From: a bacterium
GTDB lineage: Bacteria > Patescibacteriota > Saccharimonadia > Saccharimonadales > Saccharimonadaceae
Direction of reading: 5' to 3'
DNA length: 64,000 bases
NCBI GenBank assembly: GCA_030530825.1
Contig: JAUMUF010000001.1
Location: 448,757 to 512,756 of the forward strand
Shown here: positions 39,103-46,337 of the stretch, piece by piece
Numbering within the stretch: position 1 is the first letter of the stretch
How the letters are laid out: each line of letters opens with the position of its first letter
The notes under the pieces: generated by a model
The model's input: only the letters and a program-made list of their open reading frames with translations
Told to the model about the DNA's origin: nothing
The model's database searches: none
Translations under genes and position numbers: made by a program

Positions 39103-39170
39103 GATAAAATTATTTTTAACTATAGATAAATTTTATTTTGCCTATTGATAAAAATATTTTCAACTATAGC
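39103..39170. repeat. Tandem 22-bp A/T-rich repeat, about three copies
   Basis: Units beginning CTATAGATAAAATT, CTATAGATAAATTT and CTATTGATAAAAAT follow each other at exact 22-bp spacing, then a partial CTATAG. The repeat runs into the murB stop codon. It could bind a protein, or be a remnant of slippage next to the terminator. Confidence 0.7.
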
Positions 39171-40210
39171 TCGAGTGGCTCTTGCTCAATTTCGAAACCA
39201 AATTTATCTCGTACCGCCTGCTTAATCTCAGCCCGCGCCAAGTCGAGATCGCTATAACTCTGCGCGGAAATATTGGTCAAAATCAGCGCGTTTTTATCGT
39301 GCGGGCGCATTCCGTGGAGTATTTTACCCCTTAGCCCCGCCCTATCAATCAGCCAGCCCGTCGGTATTTTACATTTATTTTGTTCATAAAAAATCGGCGC
39401 GTCGGGATGTTTAATTTTGAATTTCTCCGCCTCCTTACGAGAAAGTTCAACATTCTTAAAAAAACTCCCCGCACTTGGAATGTCGCTCGGGTCGGGCAGT
39501 TTTTCGCTCCGGAGATATATCACCGCGCGCATAATATCATTGGGCGTGAGATTTTGGCGAGGGATATTTTTCTGCTTAAAATATTCTTCAACAGAAATAT
39601 AAAGATTTTCAGGCGGAGTAAAATGCTTATTAAATTTAAGCCTAACAGTGGTGATGAAATATTTGCCAGCCTTTTCTTCCCTAAAAATACTACTGCGGTA
39701 ACCCAGCCGACACGCCTCGCGAGAAAAAGTCTCAATCTCGCCAGTTTCAAGATTAACCGCGTCCAATCCCTCAAAAATATCGACAGTTTCTTGACCATAA
39801 GCACCAACATTCTGAACAGCCAGCGCCCCAACTGTGCCCGGAATCATCACCATAGACTCACAACCGCTCAGATTTTCTTTTTCAATGATCTGGCGACAAA
39901 GTTTATCCCAGTTTTCACCTGCGCCAACAGAGAAAATCACCGATTCTTCATCTTCAAAAATCTTCTCTACGCCCAGAATCTCATTCTTAATCACCAGCCC
40001 ATTAAAGCCCGCATCGCGGACAATCAAGTTGCTACCACCCCCAAGTATAAAAATCGGCAGACTGTTTTGATCGGCGAAATTGATCGCGGAACGGATCTGC
40101 TCTATACTATTACATCTGGTAAAATATCTAGCATTCCCGCCAAGTCTCATAGTTGTAAGACTAGCAAGATTAATGTTTTGCTCAATTAGGAGAGATTCAA
40201 ATTCTATCAT
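39164..40210 (-). CDS. murB: UDP-N-acetylenolpyruvoylglucosamine reductase
   Basis: MurB reduces the enolpyruvyl product of MurA to UDP-MurNAc using NADPH and FAD. The FAD site I-L-G-G-G-S-N-L-I-V-R-D, the T-V-G-A-L-A-V-Q-N-V-G-A-Y-G-Q-E segment and catalytic Ser in S-A-G-S-F-F-K-N are visible. The C-terminal H-P-D-A-P-I-F domain contains the catalytic Glu region. The 348 residues fit the longer, type I layout. The ATG at 40210 lies seven bases after TATAAT on minus, so it is leaderless. The HTH-MurA gene lies about 4.6 kb away. Confidence 0.94.
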   Translation of the reverse strand: MIEFESLLIEQNINLASLTTMRLGGNARYFTRCNSIEQIRSAINFADQNSLPIFILGGGSNLIVRDAGFNGLVIKNEILGVEKIFEDEESVIFSVGAGENWDKLCRQIIEKENLSGCESMVMIPGTVGALAVQNVGAYGQETVDIFEGLDAVNLETGEIETFSREACRLGYRSSIFREEKAGKYFITTVRLKFNKHFTPPENLYISVEEYFKQKNIPRQNLTPNDIMRAVIYLRSEKLPDPSDIPSAGSFFKNVELSRKEAEKFKIKHPDAPIFYEQNKCKIPTGWLIDRAGLRGKILHGMRPHDKNALILTNISAQSYSDLDLARAEIKQAVRDKFGFEIEQEPLEL

Positions 40211-40294
40211 ATTTTAGATTATATCATATATGGTATAATTGACGCAAGCATTTAGGCACAAAAGAAAACGCACCTGCCTGAGATGCGCTTTCTA

Positions 40295-43327: not shown

Positions 43328-44650
43328 TTAAGCTTTATTTTTTAATAAATACACTACGTGAAAGAGAAGTACTACGCCAGTTATGGCGAGAGCGATTGCA
43401 GAAATAGTCCCTCTATCCTTAGTAAAACCGGTATTTGGGGCTTTAACTTCTTCTATCGTAAGCTCAGTGCCAGAAGGATAAGCCTCAACTTCGATCTTAG
43501 TATTGGTGTCACCACTATCTTCAACCAGCTTTTCGTTTATTTTAGAAATAAAATCAGCCGTATTTCCTGAAATAGAAACATTTGCAGAGACAGTTTTGGA
43601 TAGAATCTCCTTTCCGCCTTTCTTTATCTTGAGAATATATTCAACCTGTGGCAATTTACCGCTATTTTCGATAAAGTATTTTTTACCAGCGTCGGACAAC
43701 CCTATATTTATGCCTCTAAGGCTAGAAACTATCTTCGGCGAAGCCTGTTCAGCAACAATGAATGATATTTTAGATTCATCAAGGTTTTTTAGCTTTGGCA
43801 AATAAGCATCTTGCGCGCCACTAATAATTAAGCCGTGGCGATTAACTGGAGTGCTCTCATCATAAACAAAGTTTGATAATTCTCGGGTCTTATCCGACTG
43901 TTTGATGAATTTAAGAGGAGAATTGTCAGGCAAAGATACCTCAATCTCACCATCTTCACCAAGTATTTCCTGAAGCCTAACACCGATAGTAAGAAGTATT
44001 TCATTCCTATTCAAATCAAACCTAGTAGTAGAATGCGTTAAATCAGTAGTATATTTGGTTTTGCTCCACGCAGCAACATCATAGCTCTTGGATGCAACCT
44101 CCACATCATTAACTCTAACCCACGCCCTAGTTGTATACTGCTTATTAGCTATGGAAAGCTGTACTGTTCTCTTGGTATTAGTTAAATTAAAAACTATACT
44201 ATGAAAACTCTTGGCAACATCATTAAAAGTAACTGTATACTTATATCTATAGTTGTCCTCAGGCCTCAAGTCAGACACGTCTACAGTCTTGCCGTCCTGG
44301 TACTTTCTACTCCCAGCAATGATATTATCATTATCTTTTTGGAGACGACCAACAACCTTACCTTCCATAACAATATCTTGACTTGCCATTTCCGGCAGAG
44401 CATGCGTCTCAAAGGTAAAATAATCATCCGGAAAAACCTCATCGTCAATCTCAAACTTTAGATTAAATTTAGATATTGGCGGATTCACTCCAGTTGGAGC
44501 GGTAGAATTGGGATTATCATGAATCTGTATCTCTACATTTGTTTTTACATCAGAAATCTGTGCGGCATAAGTACGCCTATCCGCGCCAACCATAACGCCA
44601 CCAAGTGCGGCCAAAACTGCAATAATCGATAAAATTTTTACTCTTCTCAT
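43328..44650 (-). CDS. Secreted surface protein with APNTG-like C-terminal anchor (440 aa)
   Basis: The signal peptide (residues 1-30, ending T-Y-A-A) leads into an external region of about 370 residues with beta-rich, Asn/Asp/Lys-containing sequence and no cysteine. I recognise no domain. The C-terminus has A-P-N-T-G at 404-408, a hydrophobic helix and K-N-K-A, which looks like a sortase signal with Ala instead of Leu. The ATG at 44650 (M-R-R-V-K) is 13 bases after TATAAT on minus; the longer ORF from 44734 has no signal peptide start and is rejected. It diverges from the HTH-MurA gene. Confidence 0.7.
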   Translation of the reverse strand: MRRVKILSIIAVLAALGGVMVGADRRTYAAQISDVKTNVEIQIHDNPNSTAPTGVNPPISKFNLKFEIDDEVFPDDYFTFETHALPEMASQDIVMEGKVVGRLQKDNDNIIAGSRKYQDGKTVDVSDLRPEDNYRYKYTVTFNDVAKSFHSIVFNLTNTKRTVQLSIANKQYTTRAWVRVNDVEVASKSYDVAAWSKTKYTTDLTHSTTRFDLNRNEILLTIGVRLQEILGEDGEIEVSLPDNSPLKFIKQSDKTRELSNFVYDESTPVNRHGLIISGAQDAYLPKLKNLDESKISFIVAEQASPKIVSSLRGINIGLSDAGKKYFIENSGKLPQVEYILKIKKGGKEILSKTVSANVSISGNTADFISKINEKLVEDSGDTNTKIEVEAYPSGTELTIEEVKAPNTGFTKDRGTISAIALAITGVVLLFHVVYLLKNKA

Positions 44651-44795
44651 AATTGTTAAGCTTATTATATCATAATGCCTTCCAGAATGAAAGCCTGAAT
44701 TTATTCCAATTCTAGATATAGCAACCAACAGCACAACTATAACAAGCTCTTATTTCTATATAATAAAGTCCTTGCGCTAAATATATCAAATATGA

Positions 44796-44801
44796 TATAA
44801 T
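44796..44801 (+). promoter_or_regulatory. -10 box of leaderless murA
   Basis: TATAAT (44796-44801) ends six bases before the ATG at 44808. No Shine-Dalgarno is present. Confidence 0.65.
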
Positions 44802-44807
44802 CACATT

Positions 44808-46337
44808 ATGAAAAACGAGCAAGCCTATTTAGAGAAAATCGGAAACTTAATTCAAGAAACGCGTGCGCATCGCGGACTAACACAGACAGAATTGGCGGAA
44901 AAAGTCGGCACTTCGCAAAGCGCAATCAACCGTATCGAAAGTGGCAAGCAAAATATCACGCTAGAAATGCTAGCGCGTATATCAGAAGAACTTTCAAGCG
45001 AGATCGTATCTGTTAATTCACAAAAAAAGACCAACTTTCGTGTCCGTGGCGGGAGAGAATTGAGCGGAGAAATCACCGTCAACACAAGCAAAAACGCAGC
45101 CGTCGGACTGCTCTGTGCAAGCCTTCTCAACAAAGGAAAAACGACTCTAAGACGCGTAGCAAGAATCGAAGAGGTCAACCGTATCATCGAAGTCTTGAAC
45201 TCAATCGGCGTCAAAACTCGCTGGCTCAACGAGCAAAACGATCTAGAAATTATACCACCAAGTGAATTGAACTTCGAAAATATGGACATTGCTGCGGCTA
45301 AAAAAACCCGCTCGATCCTGATGTTCTTAGGGCCGCTTCTTCATCAGTATTCGCACTTCAAAATTCCATTTTCTGGCGGATGCAATCTTGGCGCACGTAC
45401 AGTTGAGCCGCATCTTTCTGGACTAAGATTCTTTGGCTGTAGCGTTGAGTCGATGAGTGATTTTTATGAAGTTAAAAATTCCCTCCAAAAAGTAAAAGAT
45501 GCAATTCTTCTCACTGAGCGTGGCGACACTACTACTGAAAATGTGATTATGGCGGCAGCTCTGAGTGGTCAAACTATCACCATTCGCAACGCCAGCCCCA
45601 ATTATATGGTGCAGGATTTGTGCTTCTTCCTTGAAAAATTAGGTGTTAAAATTGAGGGTATCGGCACGACAATTCTCACCATTCATGGACTCGACAAAAT
45701 TGAAAAAGATGTTGAATACTTCGTTAGCGAAGATCCAATCGAAGCGGTAACCTTTGTGGCGGTGGCGCTGGTGACCAATTCTGAGATAACGATTAGGCGT
45801 GCGCCAGCAGAATTTACAGAACTTGAACTCGCCATTCTCAAAAATATGGGTGCCGAATTTGAAATTTCGCCAGAATATTTTTCTCGAAACGGCAAAACCC
45901 GCCTCTTCGATATTGTTGTAAAAAAATCAACACTTCACGCACCAAAAGACAAACTTCACTCACTGCCCTTCCCAGGTGTGAATATGGACAATTTGCCATT
46001 TCTTGGGCTCATCGCAACAGTAGCGGAAGGCAGAACACTTCTTCACGACTGGAGTTATGAGAATCGCGCGATTTACTTCACCGAACTCTCAAAATTAAAC
46101 GCCCAGATAGAAATGGTTGATCCGCATCGCGTCTATATCTCTGGCCCAACCCGCTGGAAGCCAGCCGATGTCGTGGCGCCACCCGCACTTCGCCCGAGCG
46201 TGGTCGTTTTGATCGCAATGCTCGCCGCCGAAGGTACTTCAATCCTGAGAGATGTCTACAACATCAATCGTGGCTACGAAGATTTTGCTCAAAGGCTCAA
46301 CTCTCTCGGCGCCCAGATAGAAACTATCACTATTTAA
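44808..46337 (+). CDS. murA: UDP-GlcNAc enolpyruvyl transferase fused to an N-terminal HTH domain
   Basis: MurA starts peptidoglycan synthesis by adding enolpyruvate to UDP-GlcNAc. Residues 8-66 form an XRE-type helix-turn-helix (G-L-T-Q-T-E-L-A-E-K-V-G-T-S-Q-S-A-I). The MurA part starts at about residue 77 with catalytic Lys95 (T-S-K-N-A), Cys192 (S-G-G-C-N-L-G-A-R), Arg197 and the C-terminal D-V-V-A-P-P-A-L-R and N-I-N-R-G-Y-E segments. The catalytic residues are present, so it is probably an active enzyme that can also bind DNA. The 509 residues exceed the usual 420 by the HTH. It is leaderless and ends in a terminator. Confidence 0.93.
   Translation: MKNEQAYLEKIGNLIQETRAHRGLTQTELAEKVGTSQSAINRIESGKQNITLEMLARISEELSSEIVSVNSQKKTNFRVRGGRELSGEITVNTSKNAAVGLLCASLLNKGKTTLRRVARIEEVNRIIEVLNSIGVKTRWLNEQNDLEIIPPSELNFENMDIAAAKKTRSILMFLGPLLHQYSHFKIPFSGGCNLGARTVEPHLSGLRFFGCSVESMSDFYEVKNSLQKVKDAILLTERGDTTTENVIMAAALSGQTITIRNASPNYMVQDLCFFLEKLGVKIEGIGTTILTIHGLDKIEKDVEYFVSEDPIEAVTFVAVALVTNSEITIRRAPAEFTELELAILKNMGAEFEISPEYFSRNGKTRLFDIVVKKSTLHAPKDKLHSLPFPGVNMDNLPFLGLIATVAEGRTLLHDWSYENRAIYFTELSKLNAQIEMVDPHRVYISGPTRWKPADVVAPPALRPSVVVLIAMLAAEGTSILRDVYNINRGYEDFAQRLNSLGAQIETITI

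Follow-up and report, generated by a model that had tools for sequence, protein, structure and literature searches.

We found that the MurA of a Saccharimonadaceae bacterium is a fusion protein, in which an XRE-type helix-turn-helix (HTH) DNA-binding domain precedes the enzyme. The fusion gene lies in a 64,000-nucleotide stretch of DNA (the window), and a palindrome just before its start codon is conserved at the fusion promoters of two phyla. Comparison of these sequences makes it quite likely that the protein functions as MurA and also represses its own gene and, in this genome, probably murB, which would make it a bifunctional enzyme-regulator. The gene and its product are laid out as follows.

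44808 to 46337, forward strand: HTH-MurA fusion gene, ATG start, 509 amino acids, the sole MurA of the genome
44850 to 44993, forward strand: HTH_3 (Cro/C1, XRE-type) DNA-binding domain, residues 15 to 62
44913 to 44939, forward strand: recognition helix, residues 36 to 44, SQSAINRIE
44994 to 45032, forward strand: short linker, residues 63 to 75, predicted flexible
45033 to 46328, forward strand: MurA (UDP-GlcNAc enolpyruvyl transferase) domain, residues 76 to 507
45381 to 45383, forward strand: catalytic Cys192, equivalent to E. coli Cys115

An earlier sequence-only reading had placed an XRE-type HTH at the N-terminus of MurA and had called for a domain search, in which HTH_3 and EPSP_synthase matches were expected. 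Both were obtained, well above the Pfam cut-offs: HTH_3 at residues 15 to 62 with 55.2 bits (cut-off 23), and EPSP_synthase (PF00275) at residues 79 to 497, covering profile positions 1 to 417, with 166.6 bits (cut-off 22.8). By sequence, the nearest solved relatives of the HTH are the HipB and 434 repressor families, and those of the MurA part are the bacterial MurA enzymes 5ujs and 5u4h. The AlphaFold2 model of the fusion (mean pLDDT 86.9) contains the MurA fold and a four-helix HTH at residues 2 to 62. Residues 67 to 73 of the linker have pLDDT values below 50; with the linker predicted to be flexible, a rigid coupling of the two domains is not visible. In the recognition helix, S36, Q37, S38, A39, R42, and E44 are invariant in both of our alignments (A1 and A2).

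Protein and PF00275 searches of the 687-kb Saccharibacteria-type genome found the fusion as its only MurA-family protein. In a set of 41 genomes, comprising this one and 40 relatives, the fusion was matched in 38, with two of the matches partial or split between contigs (the G022 match starts only at residue 83, where the contig has its edge, and the G037 match is spread across two contigs). All of the near-complete genomes have both a fusion match (27/27) and murB (27/27), and a second MurA-sized match was not found in any of the 40 relatives. An assembly or frameshift artefact was rejected, given the single intact frame in this genome and the 36 single full-length matches among the 38. The sequence-only reading had been made to depend on whether homologs in relatives also have the HTH, and the outcome favours it, as the close relatives do carry the domain. 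The named homologues in a collection of species genomes are annotated as Candidatus Saccharibacteria, which makes the host a Patescibacterium of the Saccharibacteria type. One member of the same order, G028 (locus L139; 98% complete with 7% contamination, and outside the 27), has murB and a small HTH match only, with no MurA-sized match.

The same fusion occurs in Streptomyces, Kitasatospora, Actinopolymorpha, Knoellia, and other actinobacteria, with 60 to 62% identity over the HTH and MurA domains, and its distribution in the Actinomycetota is patchy (6 of 149 sampled genomes). A canonical MurA is present beside the fusion in 9 of the 12 actinobacterial genomes examined; in the draft assemblies of Knoellia remsis, Piscicoccus intestinalis, and one Nocardioidaceae MAG, the fusion is the only MurA found. 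At one actinomycetotal locus, L318 (G532:C1:1261849-1263356), an apparent frameshift at about residue 389 breaks the fusion gene in two. Other families of Patescibacteria have the fusion at 51 to 57% identity, several of them together with close relatives lacking the HTH, and HTH-less forms were found only in Patescibacteria families other than that of the window. In our trees the HTH-less proteins fall among the fusions at three places or more. Since both the HTH and its dyad occur in two phyla, we interpret these proteins as having lost the HTH secondarily. The Patescibacteria were nested inside the Actinobacteria in a quick tree but not in a careful one, for which a single patescibacterial clade was not rejected (p-AU 0.914). 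Because the two trees disagree and the single clade is not rejected, we dropped any assignment of a direction of gene transfer between the Actinobacteria and the Patescibacteria.

The 157-bp gap at 44651 to 44807 had been proposed to hold an operator. The comparative evidence supports this, as a palindrome lies in the gap and is conserved at the fusion promoters of relatives.

44782 to 44799, no strand: predicted operator TATATCAAATATGATATA, 8 bp before the murA ATG

The predicted operator overlaps an extended -10 element, TGATATAAT (44793 to 44801). The fusion promoters of the Patescibacteria have the dyad TATAYCANNNNTGRTATA (ATAYCA-N4-TGRTAT) in the same place, and in Streptomyces and its relatives that place is occupied by the dyad ATCTCANNNNTGAGATA (ATCTCA-N4-TGAGAT); the dyad of the Streptomyces murA2 promoter is written as ATCTCATATCTGAGATA, with TATATCAAATATGATATA as its counterpart in the window. 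In many Saccharibacteria the dyad lies directly 3' of a TTGAC -35 element, and in many relatives it fills the space between -35 and -10. Some fusion promoters have no clear dyad within the 80 bp examined, and L190 has one further upstream. In a motif-free test, perfect 6-bp dyads with even spacers were counted in promoters and in shuffled sequences. Among 47 dereplicated Saccharibacteria promoters, 34 to 45% had such dyads with spacers of 4 and 6, compared with 4% of shuffles; the figures were 48% versus 6% for 25 further Patescibacteria promoters and 33% versus 4% for 9 actinobacterial promoters (spacer 4).

The dyad and the HTH have co-evolved. A consensus-guided dyad stands at 48 of 81 fusion promoters and at none of the 10 promoters of HTH-less sister genes (Fisher p = 0.0003, kinship ignored), and one family contains a sister pair of which L189 has both the HTH and the dyad and L231 has neither. 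Where the recognition helix has the substitution S36T, the half-site is TAGCA in place of TATCA: all 3 of the S36T cases have it, against 1 of the 62 others (p = 9e-5 by the Fisher test, for few sequences and with kinship ignored), and the tree gives S36T at least two origins. The dyad is weaker, with a spacer of 5 bp (ATTCANNNNNTGATATAAT), in a mostly gut and rumen clade of Saccharibacteria (L018, L056-L063, L066-L067, L088-L090), in which the recognition helix also has N replaced by H (AIHRIE). This is possibly a second co-variation of helix and site.

A second exact copy of the operator is found before murB, and the genome has only these two sites with the exact pattern.

40220 to 40237, no strand: second exact operator copy, 9 bp before the murB ATG
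39164 to 40210, reverse strand: murB (UDP-N-acetylenolpyruvoylglucosamine reductase), the next enzyme of the pathway, predicted to be co-regulated here

Among the relatives, G024 has murA and murB in divergent orientation with one dyad common to both, and G004 has matching variant sites, ATTCATTTCATGATATAAT and ATTCGTTCCATGATATAAT, at its murA and murB promoters. The murB promoters of both G003 and G004 have look-alike variants of the site. The site is absent from murB promoters in most relatives, and dyads were not enriched in murB promoters in the motif-free test. We therefore rejected murB as an order-wide target, the site being exact in the window's own genome, shared in G024, variant in G003 and G004, and absent elsewhere; control of murB by the fusion is probable in this genome and some close relatives and is not a general rule. 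A wider regulon was likewise rejected: the remaining exact sites found in relatives have unrelated genes beside them and were treated as background, with the murB site of the window's genome excepted. In G007, two exact dyads 72 bp apart (L148 positions 1501 and 1573) occur near a Mur-ligase-like (murE) reading frame.

The usual divergent neighbour of murA is glyA, which directly adjoins it in the relatives examined. As far as we have seen, only the genome of the window has a surface-protein gene between the two (43328 to 44734; signal-peptide-like and C-terminally anchored). The sequence-only reading had offered both the fusion's own promoter and this divergent gene as targets. The former is well supported by the conserved dyad in two phyla, the loss of the dyad with the HTH, and the co-variation of half-site and helix. 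The latter is not supported, as the gene is in this place only here and the dyad sits close against the start codon of murA.

From these observations we infer the following mechanism. The C-terminal domain would be the only MurA of the cell and would make enolpyruvyl-UDP-GlcNAc, while the N-terminal XRE-type HTH would bind the 18-bp palindrome as a dimer. The bound dimer would block transcription of murA, and the protein would thus be a homeostatic autorepressor. Binding is predicted to repress because the dyad overlaps the -10 element or fills the space between -35 and -10. With the same dyad at murB here, the first two committed steps of peptidoglycan synthesis would be set together.

The sequence-only reading had also suggested sensing of UDP-GlcNAc or PEP, which is plausible. 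A refinement of our mechanism on these lines, which we offer tentatively, is a ligand-gated sensor-repressor: the MurA domain would open or close with UDP-GlcNAc, PEP, or product, and its state would decide whether the HTH dimer binds DNA, in the manner of BirA and biotinyl-AMP. The enzyme and the DNA-binding domain have stayed joined with the active-site residues intact, and there are precedents in the Group II biotin ligases (PMC4016012) and in BoxR/BzdR (PMC6449761). Against this, the linker is predicted to be flexible (pLDDT below 50), and plain autorepression dependent on protein concentration accounts for the same sequence evidence. In the structural model, a flexible linker would strongly favour neither ligand gating nor repression by protein amount. 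The broadest form of the proposal, which we regard as possible rather than probable, is that the first committed enzyme of the peptidoglycan pathway doubles as a transcription factor, sensing the state of its substrate and adjusting expression of murA (and here of murB) in the Saccharimonadales, in other Patescibacteria, and as MurA2 in Streptomyces. Entry into cell-wall synthesis would then be under direct metabolite-to-promoter control, with no separate regulator.

The dyad could instead be bound by a separate XRE regulator, with the fused HTH serving for protein-protein contact. These genomes do encode other small HTH proteins (weak matches), but in two phyla the dyad goes with the fused HTH and is lost when the HTH is lost, and in Streptomyces it is nearly unique to the fusion promoter. 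Of 61 Streptomyces-group genomes, 55 have the dyad, in most cases as a single copy, versus 0 for a control pattern; in all 34 fetched loci (34/34) its place is a short distance upstream of the fusion gene. We consider a separate regulator very unlikely.

We give equally little credence to the idea that the dyad is merely a strong extended -10 promoter and that the HTH has another target or is a structural relic. The right half of the dyad in the Patescibacteria is indeed TGATATAAT, a textbook extended -10, and this overlap inflates the conservation of the right half-site in the Patescibacteria, though not in Streptomyces. However, the left half mirrors the right and is about as conserved, the two halves carrying about equal information, and in the window the left half accompanies only 3 of 8 extended -10 matches, these being the murA site and the murB site read on either strand. 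The Streptomyces dyad has a different sequence without TATAAT, the HTH-less sister genes have no dyad, and helix and half-site co-vary.

As for the enzyme that the autorepressor would carry, the claim that the catalytic Lys and Cys of MurA are intact was confirmed by alignment, with E. coli K22 corresponding to K95 of the fusion and C115 to C192. The fusion keeps K22, N23, R91, C115, R120, D231, D305, R331, R371, and R397 (E. coli numbers), and each of these is invariant in 91 of 91 subfamily proteins. A loss of the catalytic Asp305, suggested by a by-eye alignment of GVNMDN with GFPTDM, was rejected, as the full alignment shows the Asp kept as D394, and the reading of the protein as a dead enzyme was dropped on that account. 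Across the whole subfamily, D49 of E. coli MurA is replaced by E, D369 is aligned with P, H394 is changed, and the SVG of the UDP-contact loop is aligned to GDT. Given the subfamily-wide changes at D369, H394, and the UDP-contact loop, the kinetics or the substrate may differ from those of E. coli MurA. The protein passes the cut-off of the MurA subfamily model NCBIfam NF006873 (331 versus 297) and misses that of the stricter murA equivalog TIGR01072 (310 versus 392.7 bits). As the sole MurA of the genome, the fusion would be expected to transfer an enolpyruvyl group to UDP-GlcNAc. An enzymatically dead MurA domain acting only as a ligand sensor, like the kinase-like domain of BoxR, is hardly likely, for although D369, H394, and the UDP-contact loop are unlike those of E. 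coli MurA, the remaining catalytic residues are invariant and the fusion is the sole MurA in Saccharimonadales genomes that keep murB, in Knoellia, in Piscicoccus, and in the Nocardioidaceae MAG. The Streptomyces-type canonical MurAs (L243, L245, L246, L252) have Asp at the Cys115 position, and the HTH-fused MurA keeps the Cys. Elsewhere, the change of Cys115 to Asp in MurA gives fosfomycin insensitivity.

The usual view is that control of cell-wall synthesis at MurA works through feedback on the enzyme, proteolysis, or separate regulators. If our reading is correct, one protein that is both enzyme and repressor of its own gene would give compact, self-sufficient control over entry into the pathway, and would be a notable regulator to find in host-dependent bacteria with very small genomes. 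Streptomyces MurA2, beside the main MurA, would gain a concrete and testable function. The dyads and the natural HTH-less controls make the claim cheap to test.

We found no published description of a MurA with a helix-turn-helix in the open-licence literature. The pair of HTH and MurA domains is presumably already visible in automated annotation. We judge Streptomyces MurA2 (SCO5998, sven5810, vnz_28735) to belong to the same gene family, given its 60 to 62% identity, including the HTH, and the dyad at its own promoter; the correspondence of the Streptomyces loci examined to SCO5998 is likely from their paralogue status. Streptomyces also has a canonical MurA, so MurA2 is a paralogue there, whereas the fusion in the window is the sole MurA. 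Published passages report a BldM-WhiI footprint at Streptomyces murA2 (PMC4125116), SigB as its regulator (PMC8346170), a predicted DmdR1 site (PMC12161575), and a failure of murA2 overexpression to reproduce the whiI phenotype (PMC11005364). Those passages make no mention of the HTH or of autoregulation of MurA2.

Canonical E. coli MurA has its fold and catalytic residues in common with the fusion, but it has no HTH, and the fusion subfamily differs from it at D369, H394, D49 (to E), and the UDP-contact loop. The principle of combining an enzyme and a repressor is already known, although for MurA we found no precedent. Group II biotin protein ligases are enzyme and repressor in one, and the Group I enzymes are their HTH-less counterparts (PMC4016012). 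The fusion has HTH-less counterparts that may be active. BirA is another enzyme of another pathway. It binds DNA through a winged helix and has a known corepressor. In BoxR/BzdR, an XRE domain is joined to a shikimate-kinase-like domain (PMC6449761), and this family gave a weak match to the fusion in the NCBIfam search; both have an N-terminal XRE-type HTH on a shikimate-pathway-type enzyme fold. BoxR and BzdR are treated as dedicated repressors, whereas the enzyme part of the fusion is the only MurA of its genome and has kept its catalytic residues.
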